Positions 44,897-61,468 of a DNA stretch of 64,000 nucleotides are shown one piece after another; positions within the stretch are counted from its first letter, which is position 1; every line of letters starts with the position of its first letter. Origin of the DNA: Trichoderma breve (taxonomy: Eukaryota > Ascomycota > Sordariomycetes > Hypocreales > Hypocreaceae); contig NC_079232.1 in assembly GCF_028502605.1 (NCBI RefSeq), forward strand, positions 6,882,001 to 6,946,000, read 5' to 3'. The translations under genes and the position numbers were made by a program. The notes beneath the pieces were generated by a model. The model made no database searches, was not told the DNA's origin, and saw only the letters and a list, made by a program, of their open reading frames with translations.

Positions 44897-47800
44897 ATGG
44901 GCACACCGCGGGCTCCCGAGGGCGAGAGCGAGAGCGAAGTTGACTTGTTCAAGAGAGTGTCGCAAACTTTCCGTCAAATGGCAGAAATCGTTCGAAACAT
45001 CGACATGCACGAAGAGGAAAGGATATTCTATAGCCACCTGGCGCTCCACTGTATGAGATTCGAAGTATGCATAGAGCGCGCTTACCAAGTCTCGTCTCGA
45101 TTTAATGGAGATGAAATCGATCGCGCTCTATCCTATCTCTACTCGCTGATTTCTGGACCTGGCTTCCACGAACTTCCATATTACACCTCCTTCAAATCTC
45201 GACTTCAGGATCTTAATGCTTCTTGGAGTAAAACCAGGAAACAAAGCCACAATGCGCAAGTCGATTTTGTTACACAATGGATGAAGCTCGGATCACCCGA
45301 GGACCATCTTAATGGAATAGATGAAGGATTGGGGGATTGCGCAGATATATTAGAGAAACACCAGAAACAGCAGCAGCAGCAACGACAACAACAGCAGCAA
45401 CAACCAGAAAATGTTTTGAAAAAACACTCACATGATGTCTTATCCGCCGGCAATTATGAGCCATCATATGTTGTATGGAAAGCAGCCCAAGCTCTATATG
45501 AAGCGCTACAAAAATGCAAGGGCTGTTCTTGCTCCAAACAGCACGAATTTGGAGCCAAACTTGAACTAGGGACTTATCGCAAGCCCGTAAAAAAGGGAGA
45601 AAAGAGTCTAAATACTAGGCCTCGCCCAAGCCTTATGCGCTGCAGAGATGGTGACGCAACTAGGATACTGGATTTCGAAATGTTTCTGTCCATGGAGCAT
45701 AAATGGCACGAGGTTCGTGTCCAAACTGTGAAAGAGAGGGTCGTCGGGTTCGCCATGGATGACCACGCTCCAGCATCTCTTGAAGCCCATAAAGGAAAGG
45801 TCGTGGAGAATCTTTGCAAATCGATTGATAGCACAAAGTCAACGGCATGGCAGCGCCTCGTATTAAAGCTCAGAGAAGGCCAGCTCTTCAATGAAAGAGT
45901 TGAAAAGACCAATTTCTGGATTGACAAATCTACTGAACCCATTTCTCTGCTGAAATGTTTTGAAGAGAGGCGCGAGTTTTTCACAGAGAAGACCAAGCGC
46001 ATATTATCCCTCATCATAGGATATGCGGTTCTTCACCTGAATAGAACATCTTGGCTTCAGCCGGGTTGGGGGTCAGCAAATATTAAGTTCTTTCAGACAA
46101 CTACTCGGAAGACGCCTTTGAGGCCATTCATCCAAGTTGATCTACCCGAAGCTGATGCGACTACAGATGTTGAGCTCGGCAGCGATGACAAAGGTGACGC
46201 ATGCTTTGAAGACCTCGATGCGGGACATCCATGTCCAGCACTGATTGCCTTGGCAATTGTTTTAATAGAGGTCTACTTTGCGAAGCCATTTTCCAAGCTG
46301 GCTCAGATGAGCGGTATCCCACTTGAGAGTTCCAGTGGGCACATAACACTAGTAGACGTTTATCAGGTCTTCAACGGTGAAGATGAAAACGAGATTGAAG
46401 GGTGGCGATCTCATATCCCGGAAGACTCTCCTCTTCTCAAGGCGATAGACAATTGCTTGGATACAGCGAAGTGGGAAGATGAAGAAGGCGATGCTCTTGA
46501 TAACGAAACAATGAAATTTCGGATCTACCAAGACGTTGTTCGGCCGTTGGAGCTTCACTTAAAATCTGGCTTCAGCAGTATCCCTCTAGACAACGTGGAT
46601 GACTATGCAAGACAGCTCGACTTTGGGCAGTGGGGTCAGATTATAAATTATCATGAGTCACAGACAATTACTTCTACTCTGCCCCAAGAGCCGCTTATAC
46701 ATCAACGAAGCCCTTCACCCGCTGTTATGCTACTCGATTCGGGCCAATTGGCAGTACAATTGGGTCCACCGGCGTTGCAGAAACTTTTACATCAAATCTC
46801 AATGGTCAACTCTTTCGCTTCGTCTTCACCCTCTTTGAAGAGTCTGGGTTCTTTCTCAAGCTACGAGCCTAATTATCGAGCGTCTCAGTTTTTTGACGAC
46901 GAAATCGGCGATGGAGGATATTCCAACGCAAAGTAGGTATCTCGAACGTGGCACTGAAAATCTCTATTCGTTAACTGCTTCCATGTTTGGATGTAATTCT
47001 TACTAATTCATCGTCTCTTTAGGACAAAGGACTACATAAAATGGAGATCCGAGTACGAAAACGTCTATACCAAGTGTATCAGAGAGCACCTTTCAGATCC
47101 TCCCTTAAGACCTGTGAAGATTGCCATTCTAGATACGGGCATAGATCGTGACCATGATGCCTTCGAAGCTCGTGAGGAAAATATTCAAGCAAAACTCAAC
47201 TTCTATAATAAAAGCCAAAGGTCTATTCCCGATTTGAACGGGCATGGCACTTTTACTGCCAGTCTGTTACTCGATTTCGCCCCAGATGCGGAACTCTACA
47301 TTGCCAAGATTGCAGACAAAGAGAACGCAACACCAAATGCAAAGATTGTGGTGGATGTAAGCATACAGGCGGCATGCCATTCACATATATGTATCCGACA
47401 CTGACATACGCAGGCAATCAACCACGCAATTGACGACTGGAATGTAGATATCATCTCTCTATCGTTTGGGTGGCCTTCTACAAATTTTGAAGGCTATGAA
47501 GAACTTGAAGATGCCATAGATAGGGCACACGGGAAGAAAATCCTGATTTTTGCCGCCGCTTCTAACAGTGGTGGCAAGCTTGGTCGAGCATACCCTGCGA
47601 GCAGTTCACAGGTTATATGTGTCCATTCAACTGATACCTTGGGAACTCCATCAGGCTTTAGCCCAACTGCAGAGCCTGACAATCTCAATTTTGCAACAGT
47701 TGGCGAGTCGATCGAATCGGCATGGCCAATGCTGCTTTGTAACGACACGACAACTCCACCAAGGTATGTCAAGTCACGCTCCGGGACGTCATATGCAACG

Positions 47801-48049
47801 CCTATCATGGCAGGAATTGCGGCTTTCCTGTTGCAATATGCGAGGCTTCATTTACCAGAGAGAGCTGCATCAGCTCTCAAAAGAAAGGAAAAGATGGAGG
47901 CTTTACTGAAAAGATGCGCCAAGCGAGGGCCTAACTACGCGCCAAGAGGCAATTATTACTACGTCGAACTAAGTTTACATCAGCATAATCTTTTTGGAAG
48001 AGAGTTGGATAGGATTAATGACGAAATCTTGGAGACTTTAAAGAGATAG
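44897..48049 (+). CDS. Intracellular subtilisin-like protease (S8) with long N-terminal domain, HET-Q2-like candidate
   Basis: Three exons (44897-46932, 47023-47356, 47414-48049) give 1001 residues. The C-terminal domain has the full subtilase triad: Asp716 in AILDTGIDRDHD, His753 in NGHGTF and Ser916 in SGTSYATP, with AAASNSG as the oxyanion Asn. There is no signal peptide or typical pro-domain, so it acts inside the cell. The N-terminal ~700 residues are helical, include a Gln-rich tract (about 155-171), and contain stretches (ILSLIIGYAVLHLNRTSWL, HPCPALIALAIVLIEVYF) typical of the fungal DUF7580 domain found in NLR-like proteins. The 3' end is 45 bases from that of the convergent gasdermin-like gene. 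In Podospora the subtilase HET-Q2 cleaves gasdermin-like HET-Q1; the same job is inferred here. Confidence 0.88.
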
Positions 48050-48094
48050 AAGTATTGTTTGCGGTTTATGAAGTCAATTTTAGAAGTAATATCA

Positions 48095-49047
48095 CTATGC
48101 GTCATTAGTTTCTCGCGGAATTGCGCAAACCACCACCTCTTCTCCTTCAGTCAACTCTTCCGCATCAAACCCTTCCCCAGCTGCCTCTGGATATTCAACC
48201 TTTAGAATGGAAAGCGGCGGGCTCTTGATTCGTTGCTGCTCTTCCTCATTACCAAGCATAGCTCCCCTACGATAATCTTCTTCGCTGACGACCTGGTCAG
48301 TTCCCTTGCCCACAAGGACTTTACTTACGCGAAACGCAAATACGAAGTCATCGCTATTCTTAAACGCTGTAATAGCCTTGGTGGAAGCCGTGTTCTCAGT
48401 TCCGGAACTGCCAAAGTTGATTGGCCCAACATGGGGTATGTTACTGTCAATCTGTATGGCTGGAGAGCTCTGAACAGCGTGCGACGTATGCATATTGGCA
48501 TCAACACCAGTAACTATTTTTAACCCGGTGATGACATAGAGTGGTTTACGATAGCGGGAAATTTGGAGATAGCGGCGAACATCATCGTTTTCGACACAGC
48601 TTTGGATGTACGAGGACGTGGGAATGAACTGGGTCGTTTCGACGGTATTGAACGAAAACTTGTTCTCTTTGCTGGTACATTTGTTAGTGAGACACTTTGT
48701 TCGGCTGAATCAGTCACTCCTTGCACAGTTCCAACCCACTCCGCTCTTCAAGTCCCCGCATTTACATCTGCCTACCTTGTCTCTCGTCCGGTACTGACTC
48801 GGACATTTAGACCGAAAATGCTGAAGAATCTCACCAGAATGGAGAATCTTTCGTTCTGCAGTTGATCTTTGGTGTGCTCGACGCTCATTTTCTTTGTCGA
48901 AAAGACGTCTGACTCTGAAGGCGGAACGCAATGGAGCGGCCGCTCGGGCTTCTTCACGGAGGTGATGACATTGCCGAGCTTAATGGGACCGTTTGGGGGA
49001 TAATCCCACGTTGGCGCGTAAAAGAATAAATTCTGATTGTTGGCCAT
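48095..49047 (-). CDS. Fungal gasdermin-like protein (RCD-1 / HET-Q1 type)
   Basis: Two exons (probably 48776-49047 and 48095-48704) give about 293 residues, close to the size of known fungal gasdermin-like proteins. The N-terminus MANNQNLFFYAPTWDYPP, the segment GPIKLGNVITSV, and the later VETTQFIPTSSY and SRYRKPLYVITGLK are, from memory, conserved in the RCD-1/HET-Q1 family. A further strand, DFVFAFRVSKVLVGKG, precedes an acidic C-terminal tail that may be the autoinhibitory part. Such proteins form membrane pores in allorecognition cell death after cleavage or allelic pairing. The intron joint is the weakest part: the donor (after 48776) and the acceptor before 48704 were chosen for frame only. 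It is convergent with the subtilase gene, which supports the assignment. Confidence 0.72.
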
Positions 49048-55869: not shown

Positions 55870-58800
55870 TTAATAATCCCCGTCGAGGTTAAAATCTTCG
55901 CCATCAGAATTTTTCGCCTCAGACGCTGCATCTTCGTCGCTCTTGGAGTCTTCTTCACGATACAATGGCTCAATGACCTGAAAGGTATGTGTTAAATCGT
56001 GCAAGTCGGATCGGTGATTGAAGCATTTGAAGCAAAGCGCAAAGTCATCTGAGCAATCGACGCATTTCCACTGGCGACCTACAACGTCCTTTATGTCATG
56101 GTATTGTTAGAATCTGGTTCAGCTCATAAAAAGAGGCGGCTCGCTTACCATAAAACAGCTGTCGCAATAATAGGGTTTCCTATCCCCCGGCTTAATCTCA
56201 TGGATGTTACCATCCCACTCCTCCTCTATGCCCTCAGAGGTTACTCGGACACGCTCTTTGGGCTCCAGCAAATGCCTCAAGGCTGTGTTGTTGTCTGAAA
56301 AGTTCATCAGCTTCAATGCTGACCACTCTCCTCCAGCGCCAATTGCACGACCTCGAACCCATACGTCAGCACCTCGCTCAATCAGCATGGTGATGATATC
56401 TGCAGAGCCCGATCTTGCTGCCCACATCAGAGGAGTCCAGCCATCTTGGTCTGCCACATTAATGTCCATGTCTTTATACTGGTCTAAAAGATATGTGACG
56501 GGATCCGTTGAAACTGTTAAATCCGTTCCCGCCGCAAAGTGTATTGGCAATCGACCAAACTTGTCTTTTGTGTCAACATTCGCACCGGCTTCAACCAAAG
56601 CTTTCATACGCTCCAGAGATGCTGATACGCATGCAAAATGTAGCGCGGTTCTTCCTTGGCTGTCAGCGACATTTACTTCAACCTTACGCCGGATGAGGAA
56701 CTTGATAATTCTGATAAGCGTGACAGGGTTTCCGACCGATTTCGCCGCGGAAATGATAGGATAGCCCAAAATACCACCAAATTTGTTGATTGGTACTTTG
56801 GCTTCATCCACAAGATACTTGACCATTCTCCTAAGTTTCCAGTCGTCTCTAATGTCGAGCGCCGTGTATAATAACGACTTGCCATACTTGGGATCAACTG
56901 CTTCGCGATCGGCCCCAGCATCAACGAGAAACTTAACAAGGCTCAGGTCGCCAATCTCGACAGCCAGATGTAGAATGCTGCCAAATTTGGGACCGAATAT
57001 GTTGACGTTGGCCCCACGCTTAACAAGATACCTGGCGACGCTTGAGTTTTCCTCTCTGACGGCGATAGCCAGTGGTGTATATCCATCTTCATCCTGAGTA
57101 TCGATTGGGGCCCCGGCTGCGGCTAATAGCTCAACTATTGAAACTCTTGTACCTGTTTGAATGAAATGGAGTCGAGTCTGGCGCTTCTCGTTGATATAGC
57201 CTGCATTAATACTGTTGCGGCTGAACAGCAGTAGCCTAAAACACTCTTCTGCTTGTTTGGAGCCTTGATTTCCACCCAACAAGATATCGAGTGCGTCTTC
57301 GCCTTTACTATTCCGGAAACCTACATTCGCCCCTGCATCTATGAGAAGCCTGACACATTCCGAATAATACCAGTAGCAGGCAAGTTGGAGAGCTGTGTAT
57401 CCCATCAAGACTTCCTCTCCAGTATACTGTCCATGAACGGCCTCTAAATCGGGTTTAGGATCATGATTGATCAGAATTTTAATGCTCTCGGGCTCATTCA
57501 ATACAACAGCTCTGGAAAGTGCAGTGAAGATGAGACTGTCTTGGTTGATATGGCTGATAGGAAGACCCTTTGCGAGTAGCTGTCGAACGATTGAAGGGTA
57601 TTCGGTGGCAGCAATGAGTGCAGTTATTCCATCAGGAGCTTCCTTGTAGACATCAACCTTTTGATCTTGCAGTATATATTCAGCGAATTCCTTGCCACCA
57701 TACAATAGGGCAGAGATGAGCGGAGGGTTGGAAGGTGGAGGCTTGGGAGCACTTCCAGTGTAATTGATATCTGCACCACTCTGAACCAAGAGCTTCACAA
57801 TCTCTAATTGTTTCTCAGCACAAGCTAGTGAAAGCGGCGTCTTTGAATAGAGATAGTATGGATCAAAGTCATTGACTTCGGCGCCGTGTTGGATCATCAT
57901 TGAGACAAGCTCAGTGTCCCCTGTCTCGATTGCTATTGATAAAAACATAGGTTTGTTGGGAAATTGCCGATACAAGTCTTGGTTTGGTTTATAATCGAGC
58001 AACAGGCGGGCAATGTCCGTATGCCTATTTTCAACGGCCTGGTACAAAGCCAAATGGACGGTGCCCAAGATATCTGGTTTAACTGCGTAGCTGAGTAAAG
58101 TTCGGACGCATTCTGTTGCACCACGCTTAGCGGCCGTAAACAAATGTGGTCTTAAAGAGATTTTGCCAGCTTCGTCATCTTCAGTACTCACAAAGTTGAT
58201 ACCGGCTTTGATGATCAACTTTAATGCTTCATGTCTCGAATGCATGATTGCGCCTAGAGTTAATTCTGACCCATCTCCATAAAGTCCGTACGCTTTTAAG
58301 ACCATTTTGACCATCAGAGGCGTTCCGCAAACGGCAGCCATGACAAGTAGATCGCCTCTGTCGGAATGATTCCTACTGAAATCCGGCTTATGATCGGACG
58401 CTAATAAGATCTCTGCGGAAGAAGCACAATTCCACAGCACTGCGTTACTGATCGCAGTTGGCATATAGAGCTCGTCAAACCCATTCTTGTCGTCTCTACA
58501 TGTAGACTGCAGTATGGTTGTGAGGAGATCATTGAGCCCAATACAAGAGGCTCGATGGAACAGGAGTTCCGGCCACTTAAAAGTCTTCAAATTTGGTACT
58601 TTCTCGACCAGAAGTCTGACAGTATCTGGGTTTCCTTGACCAGCTGCCCAACATAGAGCGTTTTTGAGCTCTTCGTCGTCCACTGACACATGTTGCAACA
58701 GCTTGCCAACTATGCCACTATGGCCCCCCCGAGCTGCTTCTGAAATGGCGAACCAGCAATCCATTTGAAAGAAGGGTTGTCCAGTTCTGGTCTGCAACAA

Positions 58801-61468
58801 TTCATTAACAAGGTCTTCTAGGCCCAGCATGGCATATATGGGCATTTCAGAGATGTAACTTCGTTTTGGTCGGATAAAGGGGTCGGATAGAAGCCAAAAC
58901 ATTGTCTCCCAATGGCCTCTGGATTTCATGTTGGCAAACAACTCACGTACGAGATGTCTAGGTTTGATATTGGCGCAGGCTTTATAGTGACGAGGCCAAA
59001 ATTGCACGGCGTATTCCGCCAGACTGGTTCTGGGGCGATATATGACGACAGTGTCAATGAGTGCTTCGTCGTCTCTGTCTTCGGATAATACCGCCGAGGA
59101 AAACTCGTGAAGTGCTTCTTGCGCTTCCTGGAGTTGTAAGTAGCGCAGGCAAACCTTTGCTATAGAGCAATTGACTTGGGCCGCTCGATCATCATTTCCC
59201 CCATCGATCCCTAGCTCAGGTATGGCATAAAAGGAGTGATGAACAAATTTCACATCACGGTTCTTGACGGTGATGATTCCCCCAAGGAATTTCACCATCT
59301 CTGCTGCCAAATTACGTGGATTAATATCACTCAAATAAGGCTCTTTATCGTAGAATTCGTCCACCACAAGGGCTTCTGATAAGGATTCGAGTGTCCACGG
59401 TTCCGCAGCGTGCTTGATCCAGTTGAAGATTTTCTCGGCTCTCGCTTTGCGTTCCGATCCAAGGGATGAGATCATCACATGAACTGTATTCTCCACCGTT
59501 ACCGGGGAAAGGCTGTGTATTATATCCGCAATTTCTGATTTTGGCTTGCCTCGGGGGAGTTCTTGAAGCCAATTCAGGATACAGTGTCCAAGAAACGGTG
59601 CAGATTCGCACTCTTCAAGCACACTTTTCAGTGACTGACGGAAGCTTTGATATATTGGACGGCTCCTCAATAACCTTTCCAGTCCTAGCAAGAGATCTTG
59701 GGCTTCTTCCTCTTTCAAACTAATCATAGACGGACAATCATCAATATTAATGCCGGCCGTGTCCGGGAATGTTTCAACATCCAGGCCACCTCGAGTAGAG
59801 GTTGAGAAAATAAGACGATATTCACTCTCATTGTAATGTTGTTCTTCCAATATACGCTCCAGAAACCATCGTCGTTGATCTCTAGGGCATTGGTCGAAGC
59901 AGCTAATAAAGATGGTCAGTTCACGGGTGCCGGAAGAATAAATGCGTAGCAAGCGGTACACATAGTACACATCGTCAAGTGACCAGGCCTGCATTTCACT
60001 CATGGAGTTGAGTTCGAAGATCAAACCTTTGCTCGGCGTTTTGAAGAAATGAGACAAAATCGTGCTCATCACATAGATAAGCATAGACGAGATGTTATTG
60101 TATCTGGTGTCCCACTGGTCAAACTCAAAATAGATGGTGGATCGTTTTGGTATCGGTGAATCGCGATCTCTCTCCAAATAGAGCAGGCGAGAAATATATT
60201 TGATGTCCACTAGAGAACCTTCACTGGCGTAAAGGTGTAGGAACCGGAATCCTGTACCCGCTTTGTCAAGATTGGTGTACGGCGTTTGCTCTTTAATCCA
60301 GTCTAAGACTAGAGGCACTGGCCCTGTTGCATAGAAAGGCGTGTCTGGGTTGATAGTTGGAGGAGCCAAAGATAATAGACGGGCTTGAATCTGGAGCATT
60401 TCGTGGCCTATCTCGATGTCTACTTTGGTGGTCAGTATTGCAATGATGATATGCTGCTCTTATCGGTAACACTCACTGCAGCCGATGCGGTTAAGTCTGT
60501 CAGCTAAGACGCGAGCCCACACAGGCCCCCCATCGCCAACAACAGAACCCGTGACCTTGATCGTATGCCTGCCGATGGCTTCAAATGCGTGTCCGGCTGT
60601 CTGTGTATGTAGTGAAAATGCGGTAGTCGGATTGAGTCTATTGTATGGCTCCGATCCTTCTGGGGTAGATACATCGCTGCTGCCACGTTGATATCGCAAA
60701 CTGTCGACGACAATGTTAAAAATAGTAGCGTGATTTAGCAGCTTCGTGTCTAGGAAGCTGTCATTAATCCTTTTCACTTGAGTAGCTAGATTTCTAATCT
60801 TGTCCAACAGTTTGATCTGTATCTCAGGACCAGGATGCAGCAAAAGGTCGTGGAGCTGATCTTCAGCATGGTGGATGGATCGAAACCGATGGGGGGTTCC
60901 CAAGAAGATCTGTCATATTAGTAAACTAAACAGCATCGTATTCAGGCAACTATTTTATGATACTACTTACAATTGCGGTTGTTAGCATAGCAATGTCCCC
61001 ATATTTGCGAGGATTCATTAGTGCTAAACGTAGAGCCTAGTTTAATCATAAGCACGCCTTCGAATGACAGCTGAAGAATTAAGCAATAGTTCATAACTAC
61101 CTCTTTCACTATAGTGCCGCCTAAATCATGGCAAATCCATATGATCGGATGGCGGTCCGCTGGCTACAATTGGTATTAGATCAACTTGGAAGTGCGAAGG
61201 CATATTGATATCCTACCTTTCTAAGCGGATGACGGAATCGCGAGAATCGCCAGATGAGATCTTCAGCATAAAACTCTATGCCTCCAGGCTCATACAATAT
61301 TGCGTCTTCGTCAATATCATACGCGTAATCGGCCTGCACAATCTTTCTTGGATGGAATAAACTATCCACGATCCACGGAGTCCTATTGCCCCTTCTCCAG
61401 GCAGTTTTCTCATCGTCCCGTATGCCATGAACGGTGATTACGCTAAATCTCGTCAGTTCTGCTGTCAT
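55870..61468 (-). CDS. STAND/NLR-like protein: alpha/beta hydrolase, degenerate NTPase, ankyrin repeats, ZZ finger
   Basis: Six exons (61217-61468, 61101-61163, 60971-61036, 60477-60909, 56149-60422, 55870-56088) give 1768 residues. The N-terminal alpha/beta hydrolase-like domain has VITVHGIRDDEKTAW, ICHDLGGTIVKEA and FLGTPHRF; Asp97 replaces the usual nucleophile Ser. The NTPase-like domain (about 330-560) has FLHLYASEGSLVDIK at the P-loop position, without GKS/T, and LTIFISCFDQC as a Walker-B-like strand. About twenty ankyrin repeats follow (about 820-1670; for example DGYTPLAIAVREENS, GRTALHFACVSAS). The last exon completes a ZZ-type finger (CDSC..CVDC..CFKC..HDLTH) and an acidic tail. This is a fungal NLR-type architecture, probably a cytosolic sensor. 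Residues that look like family sequence continue upstream of the ATG in another frame (61443-61694). Confidence 0.82.

Follow-up and report, generated by a model that had tools for sequence, protein, structure and literature searches.

A fungal gasdermin and a multidomain S8 protease encoded tail to tail in Trichoderma breve as a probable regulated cell-death module

In Podospora anserina, the 388-residue protease HET-Q2 is reported to cut the gasdermin HET-Q1 at F238, taking off 40 residues (PMC10989679), and roughly 80% of fungal gasdermin (fGSDM) genes cluster with protease genes, about 63% with genes for S8 proteases (PMC10197012). Kinase-like domains are among the architectures of this protease class, whose multidomain members are termed Q2-L, and what kind of stimulus activates such putative sensors is regarded as a major open question (PMC12881547). 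Some strains of the biocontrol genus Trichoderma (PMC6560777) carry up to 23 homologues of another fungal gasdermin gene, rcd-1 (PMC10989679). We analysed a 64,000-nucleotide stretch of the Trichoderma breve genome (assembly GCF_028502605.1, contig NC_079232.1, positions 6,882,001 to 6,946,000 of the forward strand; hereafter the window, in whose own numbering positions are given) containing a convergent pair of genes that very probably forms a two-gene regulated cell-death module, made of a tail-inhibited fGSDM and a multidomain S8 protease of the Q2-L type acting as sensor and trigger.

Rebuilt gene models put both genes at the coordinates claimed in an earlier note on this DNA, and agreed exactly with its description of a 1001-residue protease with a complete Asp716/His753/Ser916 triad, here the product of three exons. 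The claimed tail-to-tail spacing of 45 bases (48050..48094) was likewise recovered between the stop codons. The smaller gene stood as proposed, but its product of ~293 residues did not: that length results when exon 2 begins at 48704, whereas a start at 48671 gives 282 residues from two exons, the two versions differing solely in the intron acceptor. We preferred the 282-residue form because, with that acceptor, a CTAAC branch point lies 16 bases ahead of the intron end, and because 282 residues is also the length of both nearest homologues (P0001 and P0002, 92% identical over 100%). The nearest protein relatives belong to the T. harzianum group: those of the gasdermin are from T. harzianum and T. 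guizhouense (92% identity), and that of the protease is from Trichoderma sp. SZMC 28012 (91%). Both reading frames are open, all introns start with GT and finish with AG, and the close homologues of both proteins are full length. The features of the locus are as follows.

44897..46932, + strand: protease exon 1, encoding the N-terminal helical region, DUF7580 and most of the linker, followed by a GT-AG intron
44897..45466, + strand: predicted N-terminal helical region, codons 1-190 (helices from the model of homologue P0121)
45485..46567, + strand: DUF7580 (PF24476), codons 197-557, Pfam E 7.4e-31
47023..47356, + strand: protease exon 2, with the start of the S8 domain and the triad Asp and His
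47114..47920, + strand: Peptidase_S8 domain, codons 710-959, interrupted by the intron 47357-47413
47132..47134, + strand: codon of catalytic Asp716, Asp in 28/28 aligned loci including the window
47243..47245, + strand: codon of catalytic His753, His in 27/28 aligned loci, with one gap
47414..48049, + strand: protease exon 3, with Asn841, Ser916 and the stop codon
47789..47791, + strand: codon of catalytic Ser916, Ser in 26/28 aligned loci, with two gaps
48050..48094, no strand: gap of 45 bases between the stop codons
48095..48671, - strand: gasdermin exon 2, including the stop codon
48098..48259, - strand: gasdermin C-terminal tail, codons 229-282, a candidate inhibitory segment
48125..48127, - strand: codon of Cys273 in the conserved C-terminal VVVCAIP stretch, a near-invariant column in alignment A1
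48672..48775, - strand: gasdermin intron, 104 bases, GT-AG, with the CTAAC branch point
48776..49047, - strand: gasdermin exon 1

Judged by its sequence, the smaller member of the pair is an fGSDM. It matched RCD-1-1 of Neurospora crassa in a phmmer search (E 2.4e-8) and the HET-Q1 chain 9uv9 by profile (E 3.9e-7), and 134 relatives were found at E up to 0.001, of which the 120 listed were examined. The gasdermin pore-domain fold is present in the predicted model, RCD-1 being the closest solved relative by both sequence and fold, and bacterial gasdermins are a remote profile match; NCBIfam prok_gasdermin also matched, at E 0.01, under its cut-off. The earlier note had likened the product to the fungal gasdermin family and proposed checking this by profile and fold; both checks were positive, and the likeness is borne out by sequence, profile, fold and neighbourhood. 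On the other strand, Peptidase_S8 (PF00082) matched the protease with E 1.4e-27, and Asn841 is, by position, a candidate oxyanion-hole residue. Among 7983 candidates scored, 109 proved related either to the protease or to its DUF7580 half. An S8 domain with an Asp/His/Ser triad and an fGSDM gene within 10 kb, two of the features of a Q2-L protease, are both present, and by analogy the protease probably cuts the neighbouring gasdermin, switching on a pore-forming suicide protein.

The linkage of the two families recurs. We found 27 other genomes that pair them, 26 in that the longest contigs recorded for the two proteins agree in length and one by consecutive tags only, with consecutive locus tags in 13/27 pairs; genera include Trichoderma, Fusarium, Colletotrichum, Diaporthe, Neonectria, Clonostachys, Chaetomium, Lepidopterella and Scytalidium. 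These pairs were hand-picked from the 120 listed gasdermin matches and the 109 protease matches, excluding rows with no recognisable name, and those on multi-megabase contigs without consecutive tags (e.g. Dactylonectria, Chaetomium, C. truncatum) show co-location on a contig, not adjacency. Unpaired were Cephalotrichum (DNG_04526, DNG_02418) and Colletotrichum tanaceti, each with contigs of different length, and Trichoderma virens FT-333, which had only a DUF7580 protein without S8 (P0199). The T. breve genome itself (38.5 Mb in 9 contigs) yielded nine gasdermin loci from one query (10 matches, two being the exons of the window gene), and a Pfam S8 match lay within 3 kb of six of the nine, against a maximum of 3/9 in 20,000 random draws. 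A seventh (L043) adjoins a weak S8 match (E 6e-6), and the remaining two lie beside a WD40 protein (L041) and beside DUF7580 (L039). Three loci (L044, L045 and L046) repeat the arrangement, each with a gasdermin that faces DUF7580-S8 tail to tail, and L047 carries gasdermin, DUF7580 and S8 all on one strand; the module is thus multi-copy in this genome. Across 28 loci, the distances of each of four protease segments correlated with gasdermin distance (r 0.74 each, reached by 0/1000 permutations), a signal that mainly reflects shared ancestry and that we do not use as evidence of co-evolution.

Two of these gasdermin loci have architectures of their own. At L039:2587-4296 (C6:1411086-1412795), DUF7580 and gasdermin frames share strand and frame with one stop codon between them and no S8 match nearby; a CTAAC overlaps that stop, and the locus may be either one gene with an intron, encoding a sensor-gasdermin fusion, or two genes. 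At L041 (C3:3985500-3993500), the protein beside the gasdermin frame has 13 WD40 stretches; there was no S8 match, and no further protease search was made.

The C-terminal end of the gasdermin is where a switch of the HET-Q1 kind would be expected. Alignment with the HET-Q1 chain extends to residue 227/232 of that chain, corresponding to about residue 225 of the window gasdermin, and the tail lies beyond. A linker at residues ~229-242, by analogy the putative cleavage region, varies more than its flanks, and homologue P0001 has pLDDT (predicted model confidence) of 51-57 at 221-240; after it come ~40 residues in which three strands are predicted and which end in VVVCAIPRETNDA. Cysteine occurs within the last 20 residues in 95/107 full-length homologues (255-345 residues, starting with M, from the 120 listed), whereas 20-residue stretches elsewhere average 0.13. 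Among the T. breve gasdermins, it is found near the end in 6/6 S8-adjacent copies whose end is complete but in 0/2 copies lacking an S8 neighbour, the ninth (L043) being set aside as seemingly incomplete at its C-terminal end. In a second gasdermin subfamily, 17/22 members carry Cys within their last 20 residues, 3/17 of them outside the same motif. That the last strand of the tail acts as an inhibitory plug we treat as a lead only.

Under the proposed mechanism, the short C-terminal tail would keep the gasdermin inactive until the N-terminal helical region and DUF7580 of the protease perceive a signal. The S8 domain would then be freed or oriented to cut the gasdermin in the linker ahead of the last ~45 residues, and the released N-terminal domain would oligomerise in the plasma membrane and kill the hyphal compartment. 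The features of the locus that underlie this scheme are both genes, the intact triad, the homology and fold of the gasdermin, the linkage that recurs, where the tail lies by comparison with HET-Q1, and N-terminal variability; cleavage, tail inhibition, pore formation and death would operate as in HET-Q1/HET-Q2, from which we carry them over.

Other readings of the pair deserve weighing against this one. RCD-1 scores highest among the solved relatives, and its activation is described as the coexistence of two alleles, not cleavage (PMC12881547), so that the window gasdermin might likewise be activated by encountering another allele once hyphae have fused, with the neighbouring protease doing something else. 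We consider this improbable, as it is the gasdermin that is conserved within the pair (87-92% identity with its four nearest Trichoderma homologues), the opposite of what an allelic recognition protein should be, and as it retains the conserved C-terminal tail and a linkage to an S8 gene that recurs across many genera. Marginally less credible again is a protease that serves as a degradative partner, for instance removing the gasdermin, or acts on another substrate, instead of being the trigger: the DUF7580 module does have further fusion partners in this genome, PNP_UDP_1 among them, but the repeated protease-gasdermin pairing here and in other genomes and the HET-Q2/HET-Q1 precedent argue for a trigger. 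Finally, fungal gasdermin genes are described as undergoing death-and-birth evolution with strain-specific expansions (PMC10197012), and the pair could in principle be a decaying or silent relic; its open frames, GT-AG introns, intact triad and full-length close homologues make this very hard to credit.

The regulatory half of the protease differs from what the earlier note had supposed. An NLR-associated-looking N-terminal region did not survive a Pfam scan at E up to 1, which across the whole protease returned DUF7580, S8 and a weak, unrelated YlbD_coat match (E 0.073) and found neither NB-ARC nor NACHT; with no NLR recognisable there, we reject an NLR-type N-terminus; that activation of the protease is under sensor control remains plausible. 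DUF7580 occurs at 18 places in the genome (21 matches merged), and its partners in the scanned loci, fused or next on the same strand, are S8, PNP_UDP_1 (L009, L017) and HeLo (L026). A further locus, L042 (C6:3674500-3682000), carries on one strand a DUF7580 frame, then frames for S8, for a protein kinase and for ankyrin repeats, and adjoins no gasdermin locus among those detected. Such variety is what an interchangeable regulatory module shows. HeLo gave no Pfam match among the 39 members of profile A3 at E up to 10, and the HeLo link belongs to the DUF7580 family, through paralogue L026, and not to the window protease.

The DUF7580 of the protease is possibly a kinase-like regulatory domain. 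In L026, the DUF7580 match (3e-12) overlaps a sub-threshold Pkinase match (4e-5), and L026 alone reaches LIM kinase 1 at E 2.6e-4, which suggests a kinase-like origin of DUF7580. By eye, its LHKGLRSHNILFF stretch aligns in the family with a position reading LQPGWGSANIKFF in the window protease; what we take to be the catalytic Asp of the kinase loop is absent from both. Profile A4, which includes L026 and L027, has a best kinase match of E 2.7e-4, yet it matches two designed repeat proteins as well (3.6e-4, 9.8e-4). In Foldseek, the top row that is not S8-like is a viral kinase (E 0.056, region aligned not given). Speaking against a kinase, neither A3 nor A6, the profiles that lack L026 and L027, matches any, and pairwise comparison gave A3 a probability of 1.2% against the L042 kinase, no better a score than the 0.7% against an unrelated gasdermin alignment. 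When the L042 kinase served as query to gather kinase sequences, there were zero matches at E up to 1e-20. Among the PDB fold matches listed for the full protease model there was S8 only, and because that domain filled the list, the N-terminal folds were barely probed. With such mixed results by profile, pairwise comparison and fold, a kinase identity is at most suggestive. DUF7580 is not named in any of the accessible papers.

Within Trichoderma, the most variable parts of the protease are codons 1-190 together with the linker 601-700. Against the T. velutinum, T. afarasin and T. pleuroticola proteases, respectively, residues 801-1001 are 88-89%, 92-93% and 92-96% identical and residues 1-190 are 41-44%, 43-47% and 52-54% identical, with residues 701-800 intermediate (78-88%) in all three and the linker also variable (43-48%) in the first two. 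The T. velutinum gasdermin, 89% identical, lies on a contig of the same length as its protease, with a tag four numbers apart. The window version of the N-terminus is carried by Trichoderma sp. SZMC 28012 and T. harzianum THARTR1 (79-86%). All these protein comparisons run between species. The N-terminus is generally fast: 49 protein pairs with S8 identity of 85-92% have a median N-terminal identity of 72% (36-96%). Among Trichoderma pairs with S8 identity of at least 85%, it is at most 62% in 15/17 (36-85% for all 17), and in 43 other pairs it is 49-96%. A CAG/CAA-rich stretch (window about 45360-45405, + strand) encodes a short glutamine-rich tract ending the N-terminal helical region.

We tentatively suggest, giving it rather less than even weight, that this region is a fast-diversifying recognition domain mounted on a near-constant catalytic domain beside a near-constant gasdermin, which would sort self from non-self or track a changing intruder, with DUF7580, possibly kinase-like, as the hinge passing the signal to S8. 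A variable N-terminus as recognition surface would be without direct precedent. Two points weigh against it: the divergence could instead reflect relaxed constraint, and for T. afarasin and T. pleuroticola, compared by identity with gene order aside, the loci could be non-equivalent.

Further along the contig, a second S8 match lies past the window end at C1:6948164-6948978 (L048:1-3281), ~17 kb from the pair, with ankyrin repeats in an upstream frame and none of the nine detected gasdermin loci adjoining; a 1426-residue ankyrin-repeat frame occupies window positions 56119-60399. Together with the window pair, these frames may form a small cluster of immune-type genes.

The part of the locus most worth following is the variable, DUF7580-bearing sensor half of the protease. 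With an executioner and a catalytic domain that are conserved and a front end that varies, the locus offers a handle on sensor stimuli; if the front end sets specificity, comparing its versions would reveal how the sensor works, with a bearing on which Trichoderma strains can fuse. Among the listed titles and abstract openings on gasdermin and Trichoderma, with subscription papers and the original survey outside reach, no title concerned this gene pair.

Compared with described systems, the pair resembles HET-Q1/HET-Q2 of P. anserina in joining a fungal gasdermin to an S8 protease, in gasdermin length (282 residues here, 278 in HET-Q1) and in the short tail past the pore domain. The earlier note's classification as HET-Q2/HET-Q1-type therefore holds for an S8 protease beside a fungal gasdermin, supported by sequence, profile, fold and neighbourhood, but not for whole-length likeness to HET-Q2, given 388 residues there and 1001 here, with DUF7580 and a helical N-terminus. 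RCD-1 of N. crassa is closest by sequence and fold among solved relatives, but is described as activated by allele mixing without a protease. Bacterial gasdermin operons also join a gasdermin gene to an adjoining protease gene, as far as the accessible accounts go, but with far lower similarity, at the level of a remote profile match, and with other sensors. The Q2-L proteases clustered with fGSDM share a multidomain S8 protease gene beside a gasdermin gene; the domains named for them in the accessible text are TPR, ANK, WD40, NLR, CHAT and kinase-like (PMC10197012, PMC12881547), whereas the window protease has DUF7580. It is thus a multidomain Q2-L protease and not a full-length HET-Q2 look-alike, and the pair is a sound example of a kind of protease-gasdermin switch already in print.
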